Origin: Radicibacter daui
Lineage (GTDB): Bacteria > Pseudomonadota > Alphaproteobacteria > Radicibacterales > Radicibacteraceae
Direction of reading: 5' to 3'
DNA: 64,000 nucleotides
Assembly (NCBI GenBank): GCA_030657355.1
Contig: CP131056.1
Coordinates: forward strand, 3,864,501-3,928,500
How positions within the stretch are numbered: position 1 is the first letter of the stretch; every line of letters begins with the position of its first letter. Shown here one piece after another: positions 8,359 to 24,843 of this stretch. A model generated the notes under the pieces. It was not told where the DNA came from. It saw only the letters and a program-made list of their open reading frames with translations, and searched no databases. The translations under genes were made by a program, and so were the position numbers.

Positions 8359-8606
8359 GAAGCGTCCCCACTCGTTTCCGCGGAGCGCTCTTCCTCCGCG
8401 GTTTCATTGTTCGTGTTTCGGGGCGGCTCCGCCCCCCTTTGGTACCCAAGCTATCACCGCGCCTGTGCCCTTGTCGCACCCGCTCGTCGCATCCCATATA
8501 GTCAGGTGCCGGAAGCACGATACTGCAATCCCGGCAGCGCCCAGGGGCCTATCGAAAAGACGGGATACACCGCCCCATCCCTGACCCATAAGAACAGGAA
8601 CCCGCC

Positions 8607-9017
8607 ATGTCGCATCACGCCCATATCGTCTCCAATGACGGCCTGCGCCAGACCATTACCAGCGGCCGGCACACCCTCACCGCCGACGAGCCGGTGGATG
8701 CCGGCGGCGCCGATGCCGGGCCTGCTCCATTCGATTTCCTGTGCATGGGCCTTGGCGCCTGCACCTCGATGACGGTGCGGCTTTATGCCGACCGCAAGCA
8801 GTGGCCGCTGGAGGGCGTCGAGGTGGATGTAAGCCACGCCCGCGTGCCGGCGGAAGGCGGCGGGGTTATCGAACAATTCACCCGCCTCATCACCTTCAAG
8901 GGCCCGCTGGATGACGAGCAGCGCACAAGGCTGATGGAGATTGCCGGCAAATGCCCGGTGCATCGGGCGCTGGAGGGCGATATACGGATCGTGAGCCAGC
9001 TCGACCCGGCCCGCTGA
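8607..9017 (+). CDS. OsmC-family protein
   Basis: The 136-residue protein carries the OsmC/YhfA-type core: PFDFLCMGLGACTSMTVRLYADRK with the first reactive Cys, and AGKCPVHRAL with the second. These redox cysteines in related proteins reduce organic peroxides or bind thiol compounds. The gene is about 90 bp upstream of the SDR gene on the same strand and may be co-transcribed. Confidence 0.85.
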   Translation: MSHHAHIVSNDGLRQTITSGRHTLTADEPVDAGGADAGPAPFDFLCMGLGACTSMTVRLYADRKQWPLEGVEVDVSHARVPAEGGGVIEQFTRLITFKGPLDDEQRTRLMEIAGKCPVHRALEGDIRIVSQLDPAR

Positions 9018-9108
9018 TCCGGGAGCGGCGGGCGGACGTATCGGCAACGAGCACAGCGACCGCCCGCCTTCAGGGCAAGGCAGCCAGCCAAAGGGAGAAA
9101 GAGCCGAC

Positions 9109-9879
9109 ATGGCCGAGATTCGCCGCAAGAACGTGCTTGTGACCGGCGCCGCAAAACGCATGGGCGCCGCCATCGCGCAGGCCCTTGCGGATGATGGCTG
9201 GTCGGTCGCCGTGCACTACAACCACTCGCGCGACGATGCCGAGGCGCTGGTGCGGCGGCTGGAGTTGCAGGGCAAGCGCGCTGTCGCTCTGCAGGCCGAC
9301 CTTGCCAACGAGGCGGAGGTGGAAACGCTGGTCTCCCGCGCCCGGGAAGAGCTGGGGCCGCTGACCGCCCTAGTCAACAATGCCAGCCTGTTCAAGCGCG
9401 ACGAGGCGCTGACGGTGACGCGGGAGAGCTGGTACGCCCATATGGACGTCAACCTGCGGGCGCCCTTCATCCTGTCGCAGGAATTTGCCCTGCAGGTGCC
9501 GGAAGCAACCGGCGGCGCCATCGTCAACATCGTCGACCAGCGCGTGCTGAATCTCGCGCCAAGCTTCTTCTCCTACACCCTCTCCAAGGCCGGGCTCTGG
9601 ACCATGACGCAGACCCTCGCCATGGCGCTGGCGCCGGGCGTACGCGTCAACGCCGTCGGCCCCGGCCCCACCATCCAGAACGAACGCCAGAGCGATCAGC
9701 ATTTCCGTGCCCAGTGGGAAAGCACGGCGCTTGAGCGCAAGGTGGAGCCGGAAGAGGTGTGCGCGGCGGTGCGCTATCTGCTCTCCGCCCCCTCCGTCAC
9801 CGGCCAGATGATCGCCGTCGATTCAGGCGAGCATCTGGGTTACGCCCAGCCGAAGGCCGGTTTCATCGCGACGGAATAA
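9109..9879 (+). CDS. SDR oxidoreductase, pteridine-reductase/FolM-like
   Basis: The 256-residue short-chain dehydrogenase has an NADP-type motif (VTGAAKRMGAAIAQAL), the NNAS motif, and the catalytic YTLSKAG (YxxxK). The sequence VTGAAKRMG and the shape of the C-terminal half resemble PTR1/FolM dihydropteridine or dihydromonapterin reductases. It would act in the cytosol on a pterin, but generic SDR activity cannot be excluded. GGGAGAAAG precedes the ATG. Confidence 0.75.
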   Translation: MAEIRRKNVLVTGAAKRMGAAIAQALADDGWSVAVHYNHSRDDAEALVRRLELQGKRAVALQADLANEAEVETLVSRAREELGPLTALVNNASLFKRDEALTVTRESWYAHMDVNLRAPFILSQEFALQVPEATGGAIVNIVDQRVLNLAPSFFSYTLSKAGLWTMTQTLAMALAPGVRVNAVGPGPTIQNERQSDQHFRAQWESTALERKVEPEEVCAAVRYLLSAPSVTGQMIAVDSGEHLGYAQPKAGFIATE

Positions 9880-10304
9880 GGGCCGGACAGGCCGCACACA
9901 ATGCTAAGCGTCTGGAGATTATTGGGTCTTTGATCTGATTCCGTAAAAGCGCCGGCGGCGGGGAAACGCCCCCGATGTTTTACACAAAAGCCGGAGATCT
10001 TTTTGCGCAGGAGCTGTTGCCAAGGCTGAAATCCTGTGCCTAGCCGCCAAAATCGCCTCAAAACCCTATTAAATTGTTATTTATCAATGACTTATAAATC
10101 TGCACAAGAAATAGCCAATCTAGAGGGGGCCGCAGACTCCCAGCGATTCGCGCTGCATGTCCCGGATTCTTCCACACACTTATCCACAGATTCCGTGGAG
10201 AACTATGACCGAAAGAATAGGCGGATACTGATAAGTGGATATGGTTCCCGTCTTGTTCATTTCAATCCGGCTATAACGGGGCCGGAAACCCCAGCGGGAA
10301 TAGC
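9880..10304. other. AT-rich intergenic region upstream of uvrC
   Basis: This 425-bp gap is noticeably richer in A+T than its surroundings, especially about 10040-10125. It contains a perfect DnaA box at 10180-10188 and a small hairpin TCCAC/GTGGA beside it. A 91-codon frame (10036-10311) crosses it but lacks a ribosome site and any recognisable features. The region probably holds the uvrC promoter. Confidence 0.5.
10180..10188 (+). promoter_or_regulatory. DnaA box (perfect consensus)
   Basis: TTATCCACA matches the DnaA 9-mer consensus exactly. It lies 117 bp upstream of the uvrC start. No second perfect box was seen next to it, so a regulatory or titration role is more likely than an origin. 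Confidence 0.5.
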
Positions 10305-12296
10305 ATGGTGAGCGGCAGGAAGGACCGGCGCGTAGCCGGTGACAAGCTGAGCGAAACGGCACCGGCCGGCGTGGAGACGCCGGATGAGGCTGTGCATGCC
10401 CAGGCCCGCAGCCCTGCCGCCCGTACCCGCGCCGCAAGGCCGCGCGCCTCGCTGGAGGAGGGGGTGGCCATCATCCGCGCCCATCTGGCAACGCTGCCGA
10501 CGGCGCCCGGCGTTTACCGCATGATCGCGGAGACCGGCGATGCCCTTTATGTAGGCAAGGCGCGCGACCTCAAGCGCCGCGTTACCAACTATACACAGAT
10601 CCAGCGCCTGCCCATCCGCCTGCAGCGCATGGTGGCCGAGACGCGCAGCATGGAGTTCGTGCGCACCCACACCGAGGTGGAAGCGCTGCTGCTCGAAAGC
10701 AACATGATCAAGCGGCTGATGCCGCGCTACAACGTGCTGCTGCGCGACGACAAGAGCTTTCCCTATATCCACCTGACGGGGGATCACGACTTCCCCCAGT
10801 TGCTGAAGCATCGCGGCAGCCGCACCCGGCCGGGGGATTATTTCGGACCGTTCGCTTCCGCCGGCGCTGTCGCGCGCACGCTGATTGCCCTGCAAAAGGC
10901 CTTCATGATCCGCAACTGTTCGGACAGCGTGTTTGCCACCCGCACCCGGCCTTGCCTGCAATTCCACATCAAGCGCTGCACCGCCCCCTGCGTCGACAAG
11001 GTGAGCAAGGGGGCCTACGCCCACCAGATTGCCCAGGCGCGCGAGTTCCTGTCCGGCAAGAGCAACGAGGTTCAGAGCGAACTGGCCGGCGAGATGCAGC
11101 AGGCTTCCGAAAAGCTGGATTTCGAAACCGCCGCCCAGCTGCGCGACCGCATCCGCGCCCTCACCGCCATCCAGGGCCATCAGGACATCAACGTCCAGGG
11201 CGTGGAGGATGCCGATATCGTTGCCGCGCATGAGATGGGCGGCCAGGTCGGACTTCAGGTTTTCTTCGTGCGCGGCGGCTACAATTACGGCAACCGCGCC
11301 TATTTCCCCAGCCACGACAAGGCCGAGACGGCGGCCGAGGTGCTGGCCGCCTTCCTTGCCCAGTTCTACGACAACAAGCAGCCGCCGCGTCAGGTGCTGG
11401 TCAATCTGATGCCGGAAGAATCAGGGCTTCTGGAAGAAGCGCTGACCATGAAAGCCGGCTATCGCGTCGAGCTCCTGGAGCCGCAGCGCGGCGAGAAGAA
11501 GCGCCTGATCGACATGGCCGCCGCCAATGCGCGCGAGGCGCTGGCCCGGCGCATGGCCGAAGGCAGCGCGCAGGCGAAGCTGCTCGCCGGTGTTGCCGAG
11601 CTCTTCGGCCTCGACAGCCCGCCCGAACGCATCGAGATCTACGATAACAGCCACATCCAGGGCACCAATGCCGTCGGCGGCATGGTGGTGGCGGGGCCGG
11701 AAGGCTTCATGAAGACGGCTTACCGCATCTTCAACATCAAGAACCCCGACCTGGAGCCGGGGGACGATTTCGGCATGATGCGCGAGGTGATGACCCGCCG
11801 CTTCGGCCGCGCCATCAAGGAAGACCCCGACCGCAGCGCAGGCCAGTGGCCCGACCTTGTGCTGATCGATGGCGGCCTTGGCCAGCTCAATGCCGTGATG
11901 GGCGTGATCGAGGAGATGGGCATTACCGACCTGCCACTGGTCTCCATCGCCAAGGGACCGGACCGCAATGCCGGGCGCGAGCAGTTTTTCCTGCCCGGGC
12001 GCGACCCGTTTCAGCTGCCGATCAACGATCCGGTGCTCTATTACCTGCAGCGCCTGCGCGACGAAGCCCACCGCTGGGCCATCGGCGGGCACCGCGCCAA
12101 ACGCCAGCGCCAGATCAGCGCCTCCCCGCTCGACGACATCCCCGGCGTCGGCCCCACGCGCAAGAAGGCCCTGCTGCACCATTTTGGCTCGGCCAAGGCG
12201 GTCGCCCGTGCCGGCCTTGCCGATCTGGAAGCCGCCCCCGGCATCAGCACCGCCATGGCCCGCAGCATCTACGAACATTTCCACGGCGAGAGCTGA
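10305..12296 (+). CDS. uvrC: Excinuclease ABC subunit C
   Basis: The 663-residue protein is full-length UvrC, the dual-incision nuclease of nucleotide excision repair. Domains in order are: a low-complexity N-terminal extension of about 55 residues; the GIY-YIG nuclease ([18 protein letters not shown]); a cysteine cluster ([13 protein letters not shown]); the UVR motif that binds UvrB ([17 protein letters not shown]); the RNase H-like 5' nuclease ([15 protein letters not shown]); and a C-terminal helix-hairpin-helix pair ([16 protein letters not shown]). The start has only a weak GGGAA. In many alphaproteobacteria pgsA follows directly; here it lies almost 19 kb away. Confidence 0.97.
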
Positions 12297-13014: not shown

Positions 13015-14823
13015 TCACGACGCCAGTTTCTGACCGATATAGGCGCGCCAGCCGCCCAGCTGGGTGATCTCACGCGCGCCTACCACGGCGTGGCTTTCGC
13101 AAAGGAAGCCGCTGACGATGCTGCCATCATCAAGCGTCAGCTTGCCGATGCCCAGCGGTGCCGGAATGGCGGCAACGAAGGCGCCGAAAGCGGCGGCCGG
13201 CAGGGACCAGACCTCGACGGCGATCCCCTCCCCGGCAAAACCGGGCTCGCGCACGAGGCCGGGTTTGGCCGGCACGGTGTCCGGCAGTACATAAAGCCGG
13301 TAGTCCGGGGCCGTGCGGCAGCTGCGCTTCAGGAAACCGCCCCCATCCGTCAGCTGGTGATTGAGCGGCATGCCGGTGAGGTGCGCCCCCACCACGGCCA
13401 CCTCGATACGCCCGTCCGCCGGTCGCGCCAGACGGGAAGCCATCGGCAGTACCGCCGATGTCTCGGCGCCCATGCCCTGAGGGCTGCACCGGTGCAAGCG
13501 GTCTGCCAGCGCGGCAAGCGCATCGTCGGCAAAGGCAGGGGCCACCAGCGTCACGCCGCCGCCCACCCCGTCCCGTCCAAAACCGGCGGGAATGGCAACG
13601 GCGCTGCAATCGAGCAAGTTCACGAAGTTGGTATAGCGGCCGAGATTGCTGTTGAGGGTGATGGGATCGGCCAGCATCTCAGCCACCTTGTAGGCGGTCG
13701 GGGCCGTGGGCAGCAGCAGCACATCCATCTTTGCCCATTCCAGCGCGGTCAGCTGGCGCAGCTCTTCCAACCGGTAGGCGCCGCGGAAGGCGGAGACGGC
13801 GTCATAGTTGCGCGCGCCCTCCACGATGGCGCGCACTGTCGGGTCCATCTCCGCGGCATGGGCATCGGCAAAGGCCTCGATTGCCGCCAGCCGCTCCGCC
13901 ACCCACGGGCCGCCATAAAGCAGCTGGGCGCAATCGCGGAAGGGCCTGTAGTCGATCTCCACCTTGCGGCCTCCCAGCGCCTCGGCCCGGGCGATGGCGG
14001 CGTCATAAAGCGCTTCCATCTGGCTATCGCCAAAAAACTCCCGCTCGGCCTTGCCCAGTACACCGAAGCGCCAGCCTTCCGCCGGCAACGGCGCCGGGGT
14101 CATGGGGCGGGAATAGGCATCCTGCCCGTCAAAGCCCTGCATGGTCCGGCGCACCAGATCGCCGTCCCCAGCATTGCCGGCCAGCACGGTAATGCAATCA
14201 AGGCTGCGGCAGGCCGGCACGAGGCCGGTTGAGGAGACGAGGCCGCGCGTGGGCTTGATGCCGACAAGGTTGTTGAAGGCAGCGGGAATGCGACCCGAAC
14301 CTGCCGTGTCGGTGCCAAGTGCGAAGCTCACCTGCCCGCTGGCAACCGCGACGGCGGAGCCGGAGCTGGAGCCGCCGGAGACATAGTCGGCATTAAAGAC
14401 AGCGCGCGGCGCGCCATGGGGCGAACGGCTGCCATTAAGGCCGGTGGCGAACTGGTCGAGATTGGTCTTGCCGATGACGAGCGCACCCGCCGCCTTCAGC
14501 CGTGCGATGACGAAGGCATCTTGCGCCGGCTGATAGGCAAAGGCCGGGCAGGCCGCCGTGGTGGCAAGGCCTGCCACATCGATATTGTCCTTCACCGCGA
14601 AGGGAATGCCCCAGAGCGGCTGGTCCGCACCGGGCGGGCCGGCAAGCTCCAGCGCCCGGGCTGCGGCGCGCAAGGCGGCATCGTCAAAACGGCTGATCCA
14701 TACCGCCTTGTCCGGATGGGTCGTGATGCGGGCGATCACCACCTCGATCACATCCGTCGGGGTAAAGCGCCCGGCCCGGTAACCTTCGCTGAGGGTGGAG
14801 ATGTCGAGAAAGGCCGGCAGCAT
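13015..14823 (-). CDS. atzF: Allophanate hydrolase
   Basis: The 602-residue enzyme hydrolyses allophanate to two ammonia and two CO2. The N-terminal two thirds form an amidase-signature domain with the Lys of AVKDNID and the Ser pair in GGSSSGSAVAVASG. The C-terminal 120 residues (VAVVGAHLTGMPLNHQL to the end) are the AtzF/DUF-type domain of long allophanate hydrolases. I chose ATG 14823 because it overlaps the carboxylase stop in ATGA; the longer frame adds a poor Cys-rich leader. It is the last gene of the seven-gene operon. Both urea- and guanidine-degrading versions of the pathway end with this step. Confidence 0.93.
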   Translation of the reverse strand: MLPAFLDISTLSEGYRAGRFTPTDVIEVVIARITTHPDKAVWISRFDDAALRAAARALELAGPPGADQPLWGIPFAVKDNIDVAGLATTAACPAFAYQPAQDAFVIARLKAAGALVIGKTNLDQFATGLNGSRSPHGAPRAVFNADYVSGGSSSGSAVAVASGQVSFALGTDTAGSGRIPAAFNNLVGIKPTRGLVSSTGLVPACRSLDCITVLAGNAGDGDLVRRTMQGFDGQDAYSRPMTPAPLPAEGWRFGVLGKAEREFFGDSQMEALYDAAIARAEALGGRKVEIDYRPFRDCAQLLYGGPWVAERLAAIEAFADAHAAEMDPTVRAIVEGARNYDAVSAFRGAYRLEELRQLTALEWAKMDVLLLPTAPTAYKVAEMLADPITLNSNLGRYTNFVNLLDCSAVAIPAGFGRDGVGGGVTLVAPAFADDALAALADRLHRCSPQGMGAETSAVLPMASRLARPADGRIEVAVVGAHLTGMPLNHQLTDGGGFLKRSCRTAPDYRLYVLPDTVPAKPGLVREPGFAGEGIAVEVWSLPAAAFGAFVAAIPAPLGIGKLTLDDGSIVSGFLCESHAVVGAREITQLGGWRAYIGQKLAS

Positions 14824-17800
14824 CAGGCAGCTCCCTTGATAATGGCAAGAACATCGCCGGCACGCACGGTGCGGCCCGGCTGGCAACGAAGCCCCGTCAC
14901 CCGGCCACTGACCGGAGCGGGAATGGACATTTCCATCTTCATGGATTCAACGATCACGACCGGCTGGCCGGCCTCGACACTGGCACCTTCTTCCACCAGC
15001 ACCTTCCACACATTGCCGGTAACCGGTGCGGCAAGCGCGCTTGCCCCTTCCGGCACTGCCAGTGCGTCGGTTTCGGCGGGTGTGCCTTCATCGCTGACGA
15101 AACTATCGAGCCCGCGCGCCTTCCAGTCCGCTCGCTCCGCCTCGAAGGCGGCCTGCCGGGTGGCGTTGAAGGCAGCGATGCCGGCAGCCTCACGGGTGAG
15201 CGAAGCGGCGTAATCACCATAGGAAAAGGGCGTGTCCTCAATGCGGATCGGATAGCGACCGTGCGGAAACGCCTCCCGCGCCTCCGCCAGTTCCTGCCCG
15301 TCCACCGGGAAGAAACGGATACGGTCGAAGAAACGCAGCAGCCACGGATGGCCGGGAGTGAATTCCGGCGTGGTGCGCCAGCTGTTCCACATCTGCACGG
15401 TGCGGCCAAAGAGCTGGTACCCGCCCGGCCCCTCCATGCCATAGACGCAGAGATAGGCCCCGCCGATGCCGACGGCATTTTCCGGCGTCCACGTGCGGGC
15501 GGGATTGTATTTGGTGGTGACCAGCCGATGGCGCGGGTCGATGGGCGTTGCCACCGGCGCGCCGAGATAGACATCCCCCAGCCCCAGCACCAGATACTCG
15601 GCATCGAAGACGATGCGCTTCACATCCTGCGCCGAGCCAAGGCCGTTAATGCGGCGGATAAACTCGATATTGTCCGGGCACCAGGGGGCATCCGGCCGCA
15701 CCAGCTCCTGATATTTGCGCATTGCCAGCTGCACGGAAGGATCATTCCAGGACAGCGGCAGCCAGACGGTACGGCCCGGCACCGTGACATCCTCCGCCCG
15801 GCCGAGCCCCGCTTCCATTTCCTGAAGCGCCGCCAGAAGGCGCGCCCCGGAGAGGACCGAGCTGTCGAAATGGATTTGCAGCGAGCGGATACCCGGCGTG
15901 AGGTCGATGAGGCCCGGCAGGCCTGCCTGCTGCACGGCATCTGCCAGCAGATGCACGCGCAGGCGCAGCGCGATGTCGAGCGCCATCGGGCCATATTCCA
16001 CCAGCAGGTAGTCATCGCCGGCCCGCCGGTAGGCGACAGGTACCGGCCCTGCCGTGCTGCGGGTAAGCACCGGGTCCTGCACCCCGCCTGCGCTCCGGTT
16101 GATCCGCGGCGCAGCCGGGGCGGCATAACCTTCCGCCTCGACAAACCGCACCCCGTCACCGGGGCGTAGCTGGCCCATCTTCCACAGCTCATCCCGCGCG
16201 ATCACCGCCGGGCAGACAAAGCCGCCAAGGCTGGGGCCATCCGGGCCAAGGATGATCGGCATGTCGCCGGTAAAATCGACGGCGCCGATGGCGTAGGCAT
16301 TGTCATGCAGGTTGGAGGGGTGCAGCCCCGCCTCCCCGCCATCGGGCCGCGCCCATTCAGGCTGCGGGCCGATGAGCCGCACGCCGGTGCGTGCACTGTT
16401 GAAATGCACCTCGTAACGGCTGGAAAAGAAGGTTTCGATATCGGCGTTGGTAAAGAAGTCGGGCGCGCCGTGCGGGCCGGAGCGCACCGTGATCTGCCAG
16501 TCCTTCACCAATTCCGGCTGGTCGTCCGGCGCAATGGCGACAGGCTCGGCGACCGGCGCGGACAGTGCCACTTTCAGCACATCACCCGCCCGGAGCGTAC
16601 CGGTGGCATGGCCGCCGAACCGCCCGAGGCTGAAATTGGCCCGTGCGCCCAGAAAAAGCGGCGCATCAATCCCGCCGCGCACCGCCAGATAGGTGCGCTG
16701 CCCCGGCCCGATAATGGCCCCCAGTGCCAGCACCTGACCGGCCGCTACCGCCACCGGCTGGTACCAGGGCACCGGCGCCCCGTCGAGGGTTGCCGCCATC
16801 ACCGCACCGGCAAGGGCGATCACCGCATCGGTGTGAAAACGCAGCGTCGGTCCGGTCATGGTGCATTCAAGGGCCGCCGCCCCTTCCGGGTTGCCGACTG
16901 CCCGGTTGGCAAGCTTGTGAGAACGCTCGTCCATCGGGCCTGAAGGCGGCACGCCGACATGCCAGAGGCCGAGCCGGCCCGGCCAGTCCTGCACGCTGGT
17001 CTGTGCGCCCGGCACCAGCACCTCGATGGCGCGCGGGGTGAAGGCAAAATCACGCAGGAAGCCGGTTGAAACTTCCCCGGCGGCAAAAGCCGGCGCCGCG
17101 ACGATGGCGCCGAGATAATCGAGATTGGTCTCGATGCCATGAAGCGCGGTTGACTGCAGGGCGCTGCGCAGCTTCGCCAGCGCCTCGCCCCGGTCCTTGC
17201 CGGCAACGATCAGCTTGGCCAGCATAGGGTCGTAGTTGGCGGTAACGTCGGTGCCGGTTTCCACCCAGCCATCGACCCGCACGCCTTGCGGCCACGACAC
17301 CTCCGTTAGCAGGCCCGTTGACGGGCGGAAATCGGCCTGCGGATTTTCGGCATAAAGGCGCACCTCCATGGCGGCGCCCTTGGGCTTCAGCGCCGCCTGC
17401 TCCGGCAGCACCAGCTCGCCGGCGGCCTGCCGGATCATCCACTCGACCAGATCGACGCCGAAAACGGCTTCGGTTACCGGATGCTCCACCTGCAGGCGGG
17501 TATTCACCTCCAGGAAAGAAAAATCCTGCCGGGCAACGTCGTAGATGAACTCCACCGTGCCGGCGGATTCGTACGAAACCGCCTCACCCAGCGCGATAGC
17601 GGCCTGATGCAGGCGCTGGCGCACGGCATCGGGCAATTGCGGGGCTGGCGTTTCTTCCACGACCTTCTGGTTGCGGCGCTGGAGCGAGCAGTCGCGCTCT
17701 CCCAGCGCCACCACCCGGCCCTTGCCGTCGCCGAAAATCTGCACCTCGACATGGCGCGCCACCGCCACGAAGCGCTCCAGATAAACCCGCGCATCGCCGA

Positions 17801-18371
17801 AGCTGGCGCCGGCCATGCGCTGCACTGCCTCGAATTTGGCGGTGAGGTCGGCCTCGTCATGGCAAAGCTGCATGCCGATACCGCCGCCGCCCGCTGTGCT
17901 TTTCAGCATCACCGGATAACCGATGCTGCGGGCGGCGCTGACGGCCTCTGCCGCGCTGGCCAGAAGGCCGCTGCCCGGCAGCAGAGGCACGCCGGAGCGC
18001 TCGGCAATCTCGCGCGCAGTGTGCTTCAGGCCAAAATCGCGCAGATGTTCCGGACGCGGGCCGATGAAGCGAATGCCCTCCGCCGCCAGCCTTTCGGCAA
18101 AAGCGGCATTTTCGGAGAGGAAGCCATAACCCGGATGCACCGCCTCGGCGCCGCTGGCATGGCAGGCCTCGATGATGGCGCCGATGTTGAGATAGCTCTC
18201 CCGCGCGGCGGCGGGCCCGATGTAGTGGGCCTCGTCCGCCGCCAGTACGGGAGCGGTGAAACGATCGGCTTCGGAATAAACCGCGACCGACCCGATGCCG
18301 AGCCGCCGGAGCGTGCGGATCACACGCCCGGCGATCTCGCCGCGATTGGCGATAAGGACCTTGCGGAACAT
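14823..18371 (-). CDS. Biotin-dependent guanidine (urea-type) carboxylase
   Basis: The 1182-residue protein has the full urea-amidolyase carboxylase layout. A biotin carboxylase with its glycine-rich ATP loop (KSTAGGGGIGMQ) fills about residues 1-450. An AHS2-type domain (VLVPGAQTSVQDWPGRLG) covers about 460-760 and an AHS1-type domain about 790-1010. A biotinyl domain at the C-terminus carries ESMKMEM with Lys1145 as the biotin site. ATP and bicarbonate carboxylate the substrate. Proteins of this kind under guanidine-I riboswitches, including the Oleomonas sagaranensis enzyme, prefer guanidine over urea; the riboswitch and DUF1989 partners here support that reading. I could not verify the substrate-pocket residue by alignment. 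The next gene overlaps its stop by ATGA. Confidence 0.9.
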   Translation of the reverse strand: MFRKVLIANRGEIAGRVIRTLRRLGIGSVAVYSEADRFTAPVLAADEAHYIGPAAARESYLNIGAIIEACHASGAEAVHPGYGFLSENAAFAERLAAEGIRFIGPRPEHLRDFGLKHTAREIAERSGVPLLPGSGLLASAAEAVSAARSIGYPVMLKSTAGGGGIGMQLCHDEADLTAKFEAVQRMAGASFGDARVYLERFVAVARHVEVQIFGDGKGRVVALGERDCSLQRRNQKVVEETPAPQLPDAVRQRLHQAAIALGEAVSYESAGTVEFIYDVARQDFSFLEVNTRLQVEHPVTEAVFGVDLVEWMIRQAAGELVLPEQAALKPKGAAMEVRLYAENPQADFRPSTGLLTEVSWPQGVRVDGWVETGTDVTANYDPMLAKLIVAGKDRGEALAKLRSALQSTALHGIETNLDYLGAIVAAPAFAAGEVSTGFLRDFAFTPRAIEVLVPGAQTSVQDWPGRLGLWHVGVPPSGPMDERSHKLANRAVGNPEGAAALECTMTGPTLRFHTDAVIALAGAVMAATLDGAPVPWYQPVAVAAGQVLALGAIIGPGQRTYLAVRGGIDAPLFLGARANFSLGRFGGHATGTLRAGDVLKVALSAPVAEPVAIAPDDQPELVKDWQITVRSGPHGAPDFFTNADIETFFSSRYEVHFNSARTGVRLIGPQPEWARPDGGEAGLHPSNLHDNAYAIGAVDFTGDMPIILGPDGPSLGGFVCPAVIARDELWKMGQLRPGDGVRFVEAEGYAAPAAPRINRSAGGVQDPVLTRSTAGPVPVAYRRAGDDYLLVEYGPMALDIALRLRVHLLADAVQQAGLPGLIDLTPGIRSLQIHFDSSVLSGARLLAALQEMEAGLGRAEDVTVPGRTVWLPLSWNDPSVQLAMRKYQELVRPDAPWCPDNIEFIRRINGLGSAQDVKRIVFDAEYLVLGLGDVYLGAPVATPIDPRHRLVTTKYNPARTWTPENAVGIGGAYLCVYGMEGPGGYQLFGRTVQMWNSWRTTPEFTPGHPWLLRFFDRIRFFPVDGQELAEAREAFPHGRYPIRIEDTPFSYGDYAASLTREAAGIAAFNATRQAAFEAERADWKARGLDSFVSDEGTPAETDALAVPEGASALAAPVTGNVWKVLVEEGASVEAGQPVVIVESMKMEMSIPAPVSGRVTGLRCQPGRTVRAGDVLAIIKGAA

Positions 18372-18390: not shown

Positions 18391-19005
18391 TCACGCCGCT
18401 TCCGGCTGGAAGATGGTGACGCGCACCGGCGTGGGGTTGAAGCCGTTGCACGGGTTGTTCACCTGCGGGCAGTTGGAGATGACGCAGAGGATGTCCATCT
18501 CCGCCCGGATATCCACATGGTCCCCCGGCGCCGACACGCCATCGACGATGGCCAGCTTTCCATCCGGCTCTATCGGCACATTCATGAAGAAATTGATGTT
18601 CGGTACGACATCGCGCTTGGTCATGCCATGGCGGCCAACCTCGAGGATGAAGTTCTCCCGGCAGGCATGCATGTAGCGGGTGTGGTGACCGAAGCGTACG
18701 GTGTTGGCCTCGCACGAGCAGGCACCGGCGGAGGTGTCATGCCGCCCGCAGCTGTCGGCAACGACGGTTGCCATCACCCGGCCGGTATTGGCGACCAGCT
18801 CGGTGCCAGTCGAGACATAGGGGGCGCCCTGCGCCGCGATGGTGTCCTGCGCGCTATAACGCTCGCTGGTATCGGCGGCGGCGTAGAACAGCGTATCGAC
18901 GGCCTGCTGGCCTTCCATATCGATGATGCGCAGCACCTGCCCGGCACGCACAAGGCCGGACCACGGGCGATTGGCGGGAATGGTGAAATCGTAAACCTGC
19001 TTCAT
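18391..19005 (-). CDS. DUF1989 protein, carboxyguanidine deiminase subunit (short; 'urea carboxylase-associated')
   Basis: The 204-residue protein belongs to DUF1989 (UAAP family), known to occur as a pair beside this class of carboxylase. Together such pairs (CgdAB) deiminate carboxyguanidine to allophanate. Visible features are IIDMEGQQAVDTLFYAA, DTSERYSAQDTIAAQG, the Cys/His-rich SCGRHDTSAGACSCEAN and NCPQVNNPCNG; the conserved Cys and His may bind a metal. The start at 19005 follows AAAGGGGGAAG. It is 14 bp downstream of its longer paralog. Which of the two is CgdA and which CgdB I cannot say. Confidence 0.85.
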   Translation of the reverse strand: MKQVYDFTIPANRPWSGLVRAGQVLRIIDMEGQQAVDTLFYAAADTSERYSAQDTIAAQGAPYVSTGTELVANTGRVMATVVADSCGRHDTSAGACSCEANTVRFGHHTRYMHACRENFILEVGRHGMTKRDVVPNINFFMNVPIEPDGKLAIVDGVSAPGDHVDIRAEMDILCVISNCPQVNNPCNGFNPTPVRVTIFQPEAA

Positions 19006-19019
19006 GGTCGCTTCCCCCT

Positions 19020-19841
19020 TTAGCCGCGCAGATAAAGCGCGTTGTTCTCGAAGCCGCGCACGGCCTCGGCACTGGCCGTGCGGCACGCATCATCCGCTGC
19101 CGCTTCGGGCAGCGTGTGGATGAGCACTTCCACCGGGCGGGGCGCAAAACTGCCGCCCGGCGCCAGCGGATGCGGGCAGTTTGAAAGGGCAACGATGAGG
19201 TCGAGTTCGGCCCGCAGGCCGACCATGTCGCCGGGCTTCACCACACCGTCACGCCAGCCAAGCTTGCCCTCCGCGCCAACGCTGACCGGGGCGAAGAAGG
19301 TGATGACGGGGGCAAGATCGCGTACCCCGAGCCCGTGCTTGCCGGCGGCCAGCAGCAGGTTTTCCCGCGTCGAACGCAAGGCGGCATCGCCATAACGGCG
19401 CTGGTTCGATTGCGGGGTGGAGCCGCCGACGATGGTGTCATGGGCGCCGCAGCTATCCTCGACGAGCGAGAACATGATCCGCCCCATGTCGGAGAACAGC
19501 ACCCGCCCCCGGCGGATCTCGGCCGTCCACTGCACCTTCACCGTATCGGCGCTGTTGTAGCGCTCGCTGGTATCGGCAGCGTTCCAGCAGAAGAGCGAGA
19601 CGCCCGGCGTGGCGTCGGTATTGATGAGGGTGAGCCCCTGCCCGCGCTTCAGATGCGCCGTCCAGTACCAGCCGCCGGGGATGATCTCGCGGTGGAGAAT
19701 GTCCGCGGCCTTCGGCAGGCCGGCGCCAGGTGCCGTCAGTGGCGGCAGGGCGCGCGGCGCCATGTTGTCACCGGCGGCCTTCAGCTGTTCGTAGCGGCGG
19801 CGCAGTTCCTCGATTGCCGCCTTTGTGTCCTGAGCGCTCAT
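19020..19841 (-). CDS. DUF1989 protein, carboxyguanidine deiminase subunit (long)
   Basis: The 273-residue paralog of the downstream DUF1989 protein shares the core pattern LINTDATPGVSLFCWNAADT, DTSERYNSADTVKVQW, SCGAHDTIVGGSTPQ and NCPHPLAPGG. It has an extra helical N-terminus (EELRRRYEQLKAAGD) and C-terminal tail. In characterised guanidine pathways the two DUF1989 proteins act as a heteromeric deiminase. Its ATG overlaps the stop of the ABC ATPase gene (ATGA), so expression is tightly coupled to uptake. Confidence 0.85.
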   Translation of the reverse strand: MSAQDTKAAIEELRRRYEQLKAAGDNMAPRALPPLTAPGAGLPKAADILHREIIPGGWYWTAHLKRGQGLTLINTDATPGVSLFCWNAADTSERYNSADTVKVQWTAEIRRGRVLFSDMGRIMFSLVEDSCGAHDTIVGGSTPQSNQRRYGDAALRSTRENLLLAAGKHGLGVRDLAPVITFFAPVSVGAEGKLGWRDGVVKPGDMVGLRAELDLIVALSNCPHPLAPGGSFAPRPVEVLIHTLPEAAADDACRTASAEAVRGFENNALYLRG

Positions 19842-20668
19842 GCCCGAACTCCCTGCAAGGCCAGGTCGTCCCGGCTGGTGCCCGCCACAGGGGCCGGGTC
19901 GTCCCGGCCGGGGCTTTCAAACAAACCTGTCACCTGTCCGGCCACGCGCGGCGGCCAGACGGGGATATCCTGCGTAATGGTGGCGCCGTAGCGCCCGCCA
20001 TCGCTCGGCTCGTTACGCCGGCGCTCGAAGGCGATGACGCGGGTGGCAAGGGTAAAGGCCTCGCTCATGTCGTGCGTCACCATCACCACTGTCAGCGGGC
20101 GTTCGTGCCATAGCCGCTTCATGAGCTGGTGAATCTCGGCCCGGATGCCGGGATCGAGCGCCCCGAAGGGTTCATCCAGCAGCAGCACGCGCGGCTTTGT
20201 TGCCAGTGCCTGCGCCAGGGCCAGGCGCTGCTGCATGCCACCGGAAAGCTGGGCCGGATATTTGTCCGTCGCCTCGGCAAGGCCGACGGCTTCCAGCAGG
20301 GCGCGCGCCTCTTCGGCCGCCGCCCGGCGCCGCGCGCCCCACAGCTTGCCCCAGAAACGCGAGGCGCCGATTTCCAACCCCAGCATGACATTGCCGAGCG
20401 CCGTCAGATGCGGAAAGACCGAGTAACGCTGGAAAACCACACCGCGCCCGGCCTCGGGTTCGGCAGCCAGCGGGGCGCCATCCAGCAGGATGCTGCCCCG
20501 GCTCGGCCGCTCTTCCGACAGCAGCATCTTGAGGAAGGTGGATTTGCCGCAGCCCGACGGGCCGACCAGCGCCACGAAGGAGCGTTCGGCGATTTCGAGG
20601 CTGATGCCCTCGAGCACGACATGCTCGCCATATTCCTTCCAGACATCCGCGATGCTGAGGACGCTCAT
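19838..20668 (-). CDS. ABC transporter ATPase (guanidine/urea-type uptake, SsuB/TauB-like)
   Basis: The 276-residue nucleotide-binding protein has Walker A GPSGCGKST, signature LSGGMQQR, Walker [12 protein letters not shown] and the switch His in MVTHDMSEA. It is of the nitrate/sulfonate/taurine transporter class. It overlaps the permease gene upstream and the DUF1989 gene downstream by 4 bp each. It powers uptake of the operon's substrate, inferred to be guanidine because the whole operon lies behind a guanidine-I riboswitch. Confidence 0.9.
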   Translation of the reverse strand: MSVLSIADVWKEYGEHVVLEGISLEIAERSFVALVGPSGCGKSTFLKMLLSEERPSRGSILLDGAPLAAEPEAGRGVVFQRYSVFPHLTALGNVMLGLEIGASRFWGKLWGARRRAAAEEARALLEAVGLAEATDKYPAQLSGGMQQRLALAQALATKPRVLLLDEPFGALDPGIRAEIHQLMKRLWHERPLTVVMVTHDMSEAFTLATRVIAFERRRNEPSDGGRYGATITQDIPVWPPRVAGQVTGLFESPGRDDPAPVAGTSRDDLALQGVRA

Positions 20669-21486
20669 GCCGTGGCCCTCGCGCCGGCAAACCAGGGGAA
20701 GGCCCGCGCCTGCAACAGCACCAGCAGCCGGTCCATGAGGAAGGCGAGCAGCGTGATCCAGATGACGTAGGGAATAATGACATCCATCGCCAGATAGCGC
20801 CGTACCAGAAAGATGCGGAAACCGAGCCCGCTTTCAGAAGCAATCGCCTCCGCCGCGATGAGGAAGAGCCAGGCCGGCCCCAGCGAGAGCCGGAGCCCGT
20901 CGATCAGGCGCGGCAAAAGCTGCGGCAGCACCACACGCAGCACGAGCTGCCAGCTGGAGGCACCCAGCGTCTGCGCCTTGATGATCTGCTGCGGTGGCAG
21001 CTCGCTGACACGCAGCGCCAGATCGCGCGTCATGAACGGCGCGATACCGATGACGATGAGCGCGATCTTGGAGGTTTCCCCGAGCCCGAGCACGATGAAG
21101 AGAATGGGCAGCAGCGCCAGCGGCGGCACCACGGAGATGACGGCGACAAACCCGCCCGCCAGCGAGCGCAGATAGGGCAAAAGACCGATGGCGATGCCCA
21201 GCACGAGGCTGATGGCGGTGGCAATGGCCAGCGCCGCCAGGATGCGGCCGAGACTTGCCGAAGTATCGACCCAGAGCAGGAAATCGCCGGTACGCTTGTC
21301 CGCCTCAAAGGCCATGCGGGTGACCGCTGCCATCATGCTGGCGGGCGACGGCAACAGCTTGTCTGCCGGGTTTTCGGCAAGGCGCGCGGCCGAGGCGATG
21401 AGATAGGTCAGCACCACCAGCACGAATGGCACGATCATCAGCAGCCGGCCGAAACCGGCCTCTGGACGGCGGTTGATGAGACGCAT
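20665..21486 (-). CDS. ABC transporter permease (guanidine/urea-type uptake)
   Basis: The 273-residue inner-membrane protein has about six membrane segments and the EAA loop of binding-protein-dependent permeases (ELPPQQIIKAQTLGASSWQL). It belongs to the SsuC/TauC/NrtB class. It is encoded between the solute-binding protein and the ATPase of the same operon; two copies should pair with the ATPase dimer. Confidence 0.9.
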   Translation of the reverse strand: MRLINRRPEAGFGRLLMIVPFVLVVLTYLIASAARLAENPADKLLPSPASMMAAVTRMAFEADKRTGDFLLWVDTSASLGRILAALAIATAISLVLGIAIGLLPYLRSLAGGFVAVISVVPPLALLPILFIVLGLGETSKIALIVIGIAPFMTRDLALRVSELPPQQIIKAQTLGASSWQLVLRVVLPQLLPRLIDGLRLSLGPAWLFLIAAEAIASESGLGFRIFLVRRYLAMDVIIPYVIWITLLAFLMDRLLVLLQARAFPWFAGARATA

Positions 21487-21564: not shown

Positions 21565-22638
21565 TCAGAGCTTTCCGGCAGCCGCAGCAGCCATGTAGGT
21601 GTCGGTGAAGCGGAACTTCACGTTCGCCTTGTCACCCAGCACCTTGCCGTCGGCGAGTTCGATGCCGACGACATCGGCCGAAGCTGCACCATCGCCCATC
21701 AGCCCGTGGTCGAAGAGGAAGGTGCGCACATGGTCCATGGTCGCCCCGATCTCCGCACTTTTGGCGAAGCTGGCGGCTTCGTCCGGCTTGTAGAACATGC
21801 GGGTCGCGGCAAGCTGCGCCTCGTAACCTGCAAGGTCGGTGCCCGAGGCCTTGCCCATCGCCTCGCGCGCCGCGGCGCCATCGGGCGTCTTGGCGGACAT
21901 TGCGGCCATGGTTTCGTACCAGATGCCGGCAAGCGCCTTGCCGAAATCCGGATTGTCCTTGAGCGTCTCGGTATTGGCGACGGTGAGGTCGATGATCTCA
22001 CCCGGGATCTGCGAGCTGTCGAACACCTTGTTCGCAGCCGGCGTGCCCATGATCTCGGCGACGATGGGATTCCAGGTCACGACCGACGTCACGTCCGGCG
22101 TTGCCCAGGCGGCCACCATATCGGCATCGGAGGTGTTGACGACATCGACATCCTTTTCGGAGCTGCCGATGCTCTCCAGCGCACGCGCAAGCAGATAGTG
22201 CGAGACCGAGAACTGGACCAGGTTTACCTTCTGGCCCTTGATGTCGGTGAGTGCCTTCTTGTCCTTGAGGATCACGGCGTCATTGCCGTTGGAGAAGTCG
22301 CCGACGATCACGGCCGTGGTATCCACCCCGCCGACAGAGGGGATGGAGAGCGTATCCATGTTGGTCGCCGTCAGGGCATCGAAGCCGCCGGCGGTGAACT
22401 GGTTGATGGATTCCACATAGTCGTTGAACTGCACGACATCGATCTTGATGCCGTACTTCTTCGCCCATTTGTCGACGATGCCGTGATCGGCCGCCCACTG
22501 CCAGGGCATCCAGCCGACATAGATCGACCAGGCGAGCTTGAATTCCTTCTTGGGCGCCGCTTCGGCCGGCGCATGCCAGACCAGAAGCGCCGCCGCGGCG
22601 GCTACGAGGGTGCGAGTGAGATGCTTCGAGACTGTCAT
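21565..22638 (-). CDS. ABC transporter solute-binding protein (guanidine/urea-type uptake)
   Basis: The 357-residue periplasmic protein starts at ATG 22638 with a Sec signal peptide (TRTLVAAAAALLVWHAPAEA). The mature protein begins KLAWSIYVGWMPWQWAADHG, the 'putative urea ABC transporter substrate-binding' type. It is the first gene of the operon, about 80 nt after the riboswitch core, with GGGAG before the start. A longer frame upstream runs back through the riboswitch and is not coding. Ligand: guanidine inferred from the riboswitch; urea is the older family label. Confidence 0.88.
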   Translation of the reverse strand: MTVSKHLTRTLVAAAAALLVWHAPAEAAPKKEFKLAWSIYVGWMPWQWAADHGIVDKWAKKYGIKIDVVQFNDYVESINQFTAGGFDALTATNMDTLSIPSVGGVDTTAVIVGDFSNGNDAVILKDKKALTDIKGQKVNLVQFSVSHYLLARALESIGSSEKDVDVVNTSDADMVAAWATPDVTSVVTWNPIVAEIMGTPAANKVFDSSQIPGEIIDLTVANTETLKDNPDFGKALAGIWYETMAAMSAKTPDGAAAREAMGKASGTDLAGYEAQLAATRMFYKPDEAASFAKSAEIGATMDHVRTFLFDHGLMGDGAASADVVGIELADGKVLGDKANVKFRFTDTYMAAAAAGKL

Positions 22639-22714: not shown

Positions 22715-22842
22715 AGGTCTCCCGGGGTTTTATCCCGCCGTGCCCCTTGCGGATGTCTCCCGCAAGGGCGGCAGCTCTCGGACCAGCACCCCGCCTCCCC
22801 TCGGGAGCAACGGAGCCGGAACCCTAGCCGCCAACTCAACGC
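22715..22842 (-). promoter_or_regulatory. Guanidine-I (ykkC) riboswitch
   Basis: On the minus strand the leader contains all conserved ykkC/guanidine-I blocks in order and at normal spacing: CTAGGGTTCCG (complement of 22817-22827), CTGGTCCGAGAGC (22774-22786), and ACGGCGGGAT-AAAACCCCGGGAGA (22718-22741). A variable stem, CCCTTGCGG/CCGCAAGGG, lies between the last two. It binds guanidinium and turns expression on. It precedes the seven-gene transport/carboxylase operon. The P1 boundaries are approximate. I see no clear U-tract terminator after it, so the expression platform is unresolved. Confidence 0.93.
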
Positions 22843-22988: not shown

Positions 22989-23831
22989 TCAGTTCTGCGG
23001 AAAGGCCGTCGTCGTTCTGTGCAAGGTGCGGGGATAAGCCGGCTCGGTGTGTCCACCGCGATGAACCAGCCCGAGGCTGTCAAAAACCAGAAAATCACCG
23101 GCTTCCCACTTATGGTGGTACCGGTATTTTTCCTGCAGGCAGTGCTGGGTGATGCTGGTGATCAGCGTGGCACTTTCCCCCTCATCCAGCCCTTTGATGG
23201 ACTTCATGGTGAGGTCGCTCAGATAGAGGGCCTTCTTGCCATCCATTTCCCAGACCAGCGGATGCTCGACATCGGCGATCTCTTCCTTGCGGGGCTCCCC
23301 GCGCAGGGTCAGCAATTCCCCGAAGCGGAAATTGAAGGAATGGATGGCCGTCAAATTCTCGAGATAGGCCCGCTCCTCATCAGGAAGGTCCCGCAGCGCC
23401 ATGTCCGTATTGGCAAACTGCGTCTCGCCATATTTTTCCGGCGCCAGCGTGCAGTACAGAAAAGTGTAGCGGGTCGGATATTCCAGAAAGGAGGTGTCGG
23501 TGTGCCAGTAGCGCACCGTACTCATCATCCTTTCCCGGGTGTAGTGATATTTGCCGCCGTTATAGGTGTTGGAAATCACCTGCACATTGTCGTTTGATTC
23601 GTGCCGGTTCCGGTTGTCCCATGCCAGTTCCGGGGATCCGAAAAGCCGCGTGAAATTCACCTGGTCTTCGTTGGATATATTCTGGTTTTTAAACAGCAAA
23701 ATCCCGCTGGAACTCAAAAGCCGTTTGATGAAACCGGCATCTTCGGCGCCCAGGCTGGCGCAATCAAAGCCATCGACCCTCAAACCAAATGACGAATTTT
23801 TCAGACCGGAAATCTTCACCGCGCCCTCCAC
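22989..23831 (-). CDS. TauD/TfdA-family Fe(II)/2-oxoglutarate dioxygenase
   Basis: The 280-residue protein is a TauD-like oxygenase. The iron ligands are His110 and Asp112 in YWHTDTSF and a distal His at about 257 in DSLGLVHRGGH, followed by the Arg region (YPRTLHR) that binds 2-oxoglutarate. It would hydroxylate a small substrate in the cytosol; no signal peptide is seen. Base composition is clearly poorer in G+C than its neighbours, especially the 5' half and promoter, suggesting transfer. It stands alone between the guanidine operon and hupE. A role in releasing guanidine or amine from a precursor is speculation from position only. Confidence 0.85.
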   Translation of the reverse strand: MEGAVKISGLKNSSFGLRVDGFDCASLGAEDAGFIKRLLSSSGILLFKNQNISNEDQVNFTRLFGSPELAWDNRNRHESNDNVQVISNTYNGGKYHYTRERMMSTVRYWHTDTSFLEYPTRYTFLYCTLAPEKYGETQFANTDMALRDLPDEERAYLENLTAIHSFNFRFGELLTLRGEPRKEEIADVEHPLVWEMDGKKALYLSDLTMKSIKGLDEGESATLITSITQHCLQEKYRYHHKWEAGDFLVFDSLGLVHRGGHTEPAYPRTLHRTTTAFPQN

Positions 23832-24032: not shown

Positions 24033-24632
24033 TCAGAACATACCGGCGAGAAGGCCGACGCCCGCTGCCGCGGCAATGCCGCCCGCTGCACGCACTACCG
24101 CTGCGCCACGGCGCTCTCCCGCCTTGCCAACGGTTATGCCGAGGCCAAGACCGGCTGCGTGAAGCAGCGCCGTCGCCAGCATGAAGCCCATGCCGTAAGC
24201 AACACCGGCAGCATCTTCCGGCATTTCAGCGCCGTGGGCATGGCCGTGGAACAGCGCAAACAGACCAACTACGGCCATGGCAACCGCCGTCGGCGCCTTG
24301 AGGCCAAGCGCAACCACGCCCCCCAGCACGATGACGGAAAGAGCAATGCCAACCTCGACATAGGGCACGGCGATGCCGGCCATGCCAAGCCCGCCGCCAA
24401 GGCCCATCACCGCCACGAAGACCATCGGCACCAGCCACAGGGCACGGCCGCCAAGCTGCCAGGCGAACACGCCGACCATCACCATCGCCAGCACATGATC
24501 GAGCCCCGTGATCGGGTGCGCGAAGCCCTGGCCAAAGCCGCTGGCCTGCCCGACACCGGTATGGGCAAAGGCGGCGGCAGGCAGCAGCCCGGCGACCAGC
24601 GAAGCAATGCCCAGAGCGGATTTGAGTTTCAT
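24033..24632 (-). CDS. hupE: HupE/UreJ-family nickel permease
   Basis: The 199-residue protein has a cleavable signal-like first segment (LPAAAFAHTG), after which the mature protein would begin at His. It then shows the family motif HPITGLDHVLAMVMVGVFAW, a second His-rich motif (LFALFHGHAHGAEMPE) and about six membrane segments. HupE/UreJ proteins import nickel for hydrogenase or urease. Placement beside the urea transporter genes favours urease. No urease structural genes lie in this window. The start at 24632 is preceded by GGGGACGA. Confidence 0.88.
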   Translation of the reverse strand: MKLKSALGIASLVAGLLPAAAFAHTGVGQASGFGQGFAHPITGLDHVLAMVMVGVFAWQLGGRALWLVPMVFVAVMGLGGGLGMAGIAVPYVEVGIALSVIVLGGVVALGLKAPTAVAMAVVGLFALFHGHAHGAEMPEDAAGVAYGMGFMLATALLHAAGLGLGITVGKAGERRGAAVVRAAGGIAAAAGVGLLAGMF

Positions 24633-24843
24633 CTGTCGTCCCCGTTCGGTGATTTTCTTGTAAGACCGCTGCCACGACATTCAACGGCGGAAAGGAAGCC
24701 GGCTGCCCGCAGCAAAGGCGCCTGTCTGCCGCACTATTGGGCAGAAAGCGCTCAAACGCTCGCCAGAAAACCGCACCCTTCCGGCAAAACGCCGGGTTCC
24801 ATCACACCGTTACAATAACCGGGCCAGAACGCCCTGCACCGCC

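Follow-up and report, generated by a model that had tools for sequence, protein, structure and literature searches.

A Guanidine-II aptamer within the transporter ATPase gene of a probable guanidine-assimilation operon in Radicibacter daui

We analysed a 64,000-nucleotide stretch of the Radicibacter daui genome (contig CP131056.1, positions 3,864,501 to 3,928,500; hereafter the window). Its minus strand carries an operon with a Guanidine-I (ykkC) riboswitch at its head, followed by genes for an ATP-binding cassette (ABC) transporter, two DUF1989 proteins, a carboxylase and an allophanate hydrolase. Rfam searches revealed a second guanidine aptamer, of the Guanidine-II (mini-ykkC) class, inside the coding sequence of the transporter ATPase. 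The same letters thus appear to encode both the tail of the ATPase and a regulatory RNA. The features of the operon, in window positions, are as follows.

22717..22838, minus strand: Guanidine-I (ykkC) riboswitch aptamer, operon head (RF00442, 80.1 bits, gathering threshold 63)
21565..22638, minus strand: ABC transporter substrate-binding protein (TIGR03427, 537.8 bits, cut-off 333.9)
20665..21486, minus strand: ABC transporter permease (PF00528, 72.8 bits)
19838..20668, minus strand: ABC transporter ATPase (PF00005), whose C-terminal RDDP and RDDL codons form the Guanidine-II hairpins
19861..19910, minus strand: Guanidine-II (mini-ykkC) aptamer inside the ATPase coding sequence (RF01068, 39.9 bits, gathering threshold 32)
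19902-19899 and 19869-19866, minus strand: ACGA loops of Guanidine-II hairpins P1 and P2, respectively, read from the sequence
19849..19854, minus strand: AGGGAG, Shine-Dalgarno-like, read from the sequence and putatively serving the first DUF1989 gene
19838..19841, minus strand: ATGA, ATPase stop overlapping the start of the first DUF1989 gene
19020..19841, minus strand: UAAP1 (DUF1989; TIGR03425, 266.8 bits, cut-off 205.95; PF09347)
18391..19005, minus strand: UAAP2 (DUF1989; TIGR03424, 329.8 bits, cut-off 284.7), start set at an internal ATG
14823..18371, minus strand: probable guanidine carboxylase, family name urea carboxylase (TIGR02712, 1834.1 bits, cut-off 1303.85), with D699 and D933
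13015..14823, minus strand: allophanate hydrolase AtzF (TIGR02713, 795.2 bits, cut-off 511.05), start set at an internal ATG

A preliminary description of the window had placed a Guanidine-I riboswitch at 22715-22842 on the minus strand. The Rfam covariance model (cmscan, Rfam 15) matched there over its full length (model positions 1-107 of 107, E 1.2e-12), with bounds within a few bases of those proposed, and this was its single match in the 5.06 Mb genome at E <= 0.001. The proposed gene set was borne out by NCBIfam and Pfam matches to substrate-binding protein, permease, ATPase, DUF1989 pair, 'urea carboxylase' and allophanate hydrolase. From the gene context, the ligand of the substrate-binding protein is probably guanidine, and the adjacent DUF1989 proteins UAAP1 and UAAP2 are likely to be the two subunits of a carboxyguanidine deiminase (CgdAB), which PMC11410670 recognises by the CgdA and CgdB clades of the DUF1989 tree.

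The Guanidine-II aptamer is absent from the preliminary description. It was also the only match of its class in the genome at E <= 0.001. Its two ACGR-loop hairpins occupy the C-terminal codons of the ATPase, encoding ...PGRDDPAPVAGTSRDDLALQGVRA, and the aptamer ends 19 nucleotides before position 19841, where the first DUF1989 gene begins with an ATG that overlaps the stop codon of the ATPase. Guanidine-II elements, whose Rfam model does not include their surroundings, usually lie in leaders or between genes. The placement in the window departs from this, as the aptamer falls within the ATPase frame both here and in 52 of 80 relatives.

These relatives were collected from genome contigs by similarity of the ATPase protein, not by riboswitch, and are the best 80 of at least 583 confirmed. 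As the ranking used the whole ATPase including its tail, it favours the embedded state, and many of the loci are close kin. A motif search found two ACGR hairpins at the 3' end of the ATPase gene in all 80, and only two stray motif pairs elsewhere in 1.89 Mb of their loci, counting both strands. With the window counted in, 53 of 81 loci have an ATPase frame that continues through both hairpins; in 14 it ends between them and in 14 ahead of them. Rfam, applied to 22 hand-chosen relatives, scored Guanidine-II over the cut-off in 21 and Guanidine-I in 21; the misses were L110, with a spacing of 47 nucleotides, and L105, whose contig begins within the substrate-binding gene. L105, filed as Candidatus Kuenenia, is close to L109, filed as Rhizobium sp. 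Q54, and their aptamers are identical, so that its bin is probably mislabelled.

The next start was defined as the first ATG or GTG that opens an uninterrupted frame and has a Shine-Dalgarno-like site. By this rule, the ATPase stop and the next start share 4 nucleotides in 30 of the 53 embedded loci. The gap is 37-41 nucleotides where the ATPase stops between the hairpins and 70-164 where it stops before them. In the former 14 loci, among them L041, L052 and L078, the stop falls in the inter-hairpin linker, and the gap is 38 nucleotides in 10.

Scans for Guanidine-II alone gave matches in 38 of 385 genomes at class level and in 84 of 398 at phylum level, and the best-scoring 29 loci from each were examined. 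Such an ATPase lies upstream in 6 of these 58 loci (window excluded) and, judged from coordinates, its frame runs through the aptamer in all 6; these are not fully independent of the 80 relatives, as L007 seems to be the same contig as L105. Locus L006 has a DUF1989 pair downstream of Guanidine-II without such an ATPase. Most of the remaining loci have no homologue of a window gene, and several lie, by eye, upstream of small multidrug-resistance-type proteins. Ten hand-picked open reading frames overlapping Guanidine-II in other contexts had no Pfam match. Searches of the genome set at family and order level returned only the window's own genome. Plasmid records with a similar ATPase number 131, of which 123 are from Rhizobium, and all three annotated plasmid regions examined carry both riboswitches. 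On plasmid p42e of Rhizobium etli CFN 42, both riboswitches pass Rfam, and the annotation extends the ATPase gene RHE_RS24645 across the aptamer and names the enzymes for urea.

To see whether the hairpins behave as RNA, we aligned 68 of the 69 distinct aptamers, leaving out L110 because of its long linker. Standard pairs fill 94.6% of the pair cells. Double changes number 52 against a mean of 13.3 in shuffles (score 0.234 against 0.112), and the best slid control reached 27 with a score of 0.091. The excess persists in the 45 distinct embedded rows (27 against 8.3) and in the 33 rows with both hairpins in the ATPase frame (21 against 4.6), values that none of 300 shuffles reached in either case. 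The evidence is confined to the outer pairs, because loops and inner pairs were fixed by the search motif, and the shuffles ignore the kinship of the loci. All 56 loci that read P1 in frame 2 use GAC as its first Asp codon, compared with GAC at 406 of the 607 Asp codons of the gene bodies; since no relative failed the motif, this bias is not a product of the choice of motif, although the loci are related. In nine Bradyrhizobium loci and two metagenome-assembled genomes, P1 is read in an alternative frame, and GTTR followed by GRPG replaces RDDP. On a quick ATPase tree with a weak root and support from the Shimodaira-Hasegawa-like approximate likelihood ratio test (SH-aLRT) only, the frame needs two changes and the embedding state nine. 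Given the covariation of the hairpins, which extends to the embedded ones, and the use of two frames, the conserved entity appears to be the RNA, with the peptide following from it.

The preliminary description had also re-assigned this 'urea' operon to guanidine catabolism. Guanidine carboxylase needs Asp at the positions corresponding to 1330 and 1584 of the Kluyveromyces lactis enzyme, of which Asp1330 separates guanidine from urea carboxylases (PMC11410670). The substrate-pocket position singled out in that description holds the guanidine-type residue: position 1330, an Asn in K. lactis urea amidolyase (PDB chain 5i8i_A), aligned to D699 of the window carboxylase, and the second required Asp corresponds to D933, position 1584 having been counted by hand along the 5i8i_A alignment. 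This carboxylase is the only protein in the genome above the TIGR02712 cut-off. Among the 80 relatives, the pocket Asp is present in 72 of the 73 whose match covers the site; the exception is L098 (Hyphomicrobium sp. PB1.3.35), whose carboxylase (8366-11959) has the urea-type Asn in a locus with Guanidine-I at 73.5 bits and Guanidine-II at 46.1 bits. Either the L098 carboxylase acts on guanidine with an Asn in its pocket, or it acts on urea and is controlled by guanidine. The separate urea transporter reported next door is indeed there, with urtABCDE each above its curated cut-off, and the same contig carries one urease alpha gene at a distance of about 2.2 Mb. Pocket Asp, gene set and separate urtABCDE together support the re-assignment.

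We consider it likely that the locus is a guanidine-assimilation operon in which Guanidine-II works as a guanidine sensor gating the enzyme block. Two guanidine sensors would then share one transcript. Guanidine-I at the 5' end would permit the transcript when guanidine is present, presumably as a transcriptional ON switch as in homologues, and the ABC transporter would import guanidine. Guanidine-II would gate translation of the DUF1989 pair, the carboxylase and the allophanate hydrolase, the first start lying just downstream. By analogy with its class, its two ACGA loops would dock in the presence of guanidine and open the ribosome site, which would be masked in its absence. As the aptamer lies within the reading frame, a ribosome finishing the ATPase traverses it and ends on ATGA, where it would cover the output site and where re-initiation and ligand control may meet. 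In published work, Guanidine-II is proposed to regulate translation, with a putative anti-Shine-Dalgarno linker being sequestered when the loops dock (PMC9094411).

Several observations count against this reading, most of them concerning the expression platforms. A terminator-type platform, which lies outside the Rfam aptamer model, is usual for Guanidine-I. A consensus scan of the window found no intrinsic terminator in the stretch that separates the Guanidine-I aptamer from the first gene; among eight relatives printed, a hairpin followed by a T run downstream of Guanidine-I was visible by eye in three (L034, L041 and L092). Pairing between the Guanidine-II linker and the Shine-Dalgarno site was not generally better than with shuffled linkers (at or below 0.05 in 8 of 81 loci, above 0.5 in 20; median 0.26, window 0.877), so that an anti-Shine-Dalgarno linker is unsupported as a general platform. 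Forcing both hairpins shifted the predicted access of the site by more than 0.1 in 5 of 81 loci (four up, one down), in an energy model that omits loop docking. The minimum-energy fold of the window lacks P2, and imposing P1 and P2 on it carries a penalty of 8.0 kcal/mol; penalties above 2 kcal/mol arise in 8 of 81 loci. The urea-type Asn of L098 in the presence of both riboswitches, the restriction of the covariation to outer pairs and the shared ancestry that the shuffles ignore point in the same direction. In that minimum-energy fold, the 3' strand of P2, CCTG (19865-19862), pairs with CAGG (19855-19852) at the Shine-Dalgarno site; we retain this pairing purely as a suggestion from the folding model.

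Two explanations would remove either the guanidine pathway or the RNA element. The operon might degrade urea, with the riboswitches sensing guanidine merely as a proxy. Family models and the R. etli CFN 42 annotation both name urea, and the Asn of L098 fits such a scheme; D699, the two guanidine riboswitches and the presence of a separate urtABCDE and urease in the same genome speak against it, and we regard it as very improbable. The hairpins might, in turn, be chance or a protein-level repeat (RDDP...RDDL) of the ATPase tail with no RNA element behind it. In 38 loci a single frame covers both hairpins and yields a short Asp-rich repeat. However, the two reading frames give unrelated peptides, the stems show compensatory changes and the hairpins are retained where the gene stops before them, so that this explanation is barely credible.

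How far the passage of ribosomes matters is a separate question. In the stronger form of our proposal, the riboswitch is itself the coding stretch: ribosomes translating the importer ATPase would unfold Guanidine-II at each passage and stop on ATGA next to its output site, and enzyme synthesis would read both free guanidine and the rate of importer synthesis. Ligand control and translational coupling would then be a single device, conserved across many alphaproteobacterial guanidine operons. We put this forward tentatively and think it rather unlikely. Alternatively, Guanidine-II works and its overlap with the ATPase is accidental, the stop having been lost or having drifted, with the extra codons harmless and ribosome passage irrelevant; this bears on the ribosome-passage proposal alone, not on Guanidine-II as a sensor, and we judge it slightly more probable than not. 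Two different frames read the tail, the 14 loci whose ATPase stops before the hairpins lack it, and the nine changes of state on the tree fit an accident. Across the aptamer, moreover, the other two frames of the embedded loci lack a stop in 102 of 106 cases; the composition of the aptamer thus predicts an open frame, and the overlap need not be selected, which also weighs against the reading given above. Selection for an open frame was accordingly dropped as evidence. On the other side, more loci are embedded than in any other state (53 of 81), a count to which the tail-inclusive ranking contributes, and embedding occurs on well separated branches of the weakly rooted tree (Solimonas, Azospirillaceae, Xanthobacteraceae, Rhizobiaceae and Devosia). 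The ATGA overlap in 30 of the 53 embedded loci also argues against an accident.

Upstream of the operon, a TauD-type dioxygenase gene (22989-23831, minus strand) ends adjoining the Guanidine-I aptamer on the same strand, and a HupE/UreJ-family gene (24033-24680, minus strand) lies between it and the urt genes. In Vreelandella, a 2-oxoglutarate dioxygenase encoded within the operon acts on methylguanidine (PMC12508155). We found no direct link between that enzyme and the TauD-type gene, and, with no direct comparison to MgdH, rejected a methylguanidine hydroxylase role for the latter, because the annotations of its best PDB matches are those of 2,4-dichlorophenoxyacetate (2,4-D)- and taurine-type dioxygenases and it lies upstream of Guanidine-I.

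The re-assignment to guanidine is by itself ordinary and follows published work, as it is already in print for homologues (PMC12186494); here it corrects the 'urea' annotation of such operons. Sensors and pathway are known; the placement of Guanidine-II is one that we did not find described in the literature searched. It lies in coding sequence at 53 of the 81 loci compared, including nameable bacteria such as R. etli CFN 42, which would be a convenient system for studying the operon. If the sensor works there, these loci would let one study in a natural setting how a translating ribosome and a small aptamer coexist on one RNA, and suggest that searches restricted to intergenic regions can miss such embedded elements.

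Among the titles and abstracts listed in searches on riboswitches within or overlapping coding sequence, with most subscription journals outside them, none resembled this case, and the mini-ykkC passages available from PMC2864571 and PMC3766115 do not mention coding-sequence overlap. The SAM-II riboswitch of Sinorhizobium metA is likewise alphaproteobacterial and stands in an unusual relation to start codons; however, it precedes its own gene, and the abstract of PMC9373788 places none of it in a preceding coding sequence. Bi-mechanism tandem riboswitches resemble the window in having two switches per transcript, acting probably on transcription and then on translation; the survey in PMC9481103, as far as its available text goes, contains no tandem guanidine riboswitches and covers only pairs without an intervening open reading frame, whereas three genes separate the two in the window. 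The enterobacterial operons of Raoultella, Klebsiella and Erwinia also carry two riboswitch classes per gene cluster, but their Guanidine-II controls the carboxylase and allophanate hydrolase (PMC12186494). Two loci of our scans, L132 and L133, share this published layout, with Guanidine-II (at about 1501-1550) following the second DUF1989 gene and preceding the carboxylase. A close parallel is Vreelandella boliviensis, where Guanidine-I heads the operon, Guanidine-II lies within it and both bind guanidine in vitro (PMC12508155); the pathway genes are alike and both operons include an ABC transporter. In the published guanidine operons compared (PMC12508155, PMC12186494), Guanidine-II stands before the carboxylase. 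In the window, unlike in V. boliviensis, it lies inside the ATPase coding sequence and precedes the DUF1989 pair, so that this pair would be gated too.
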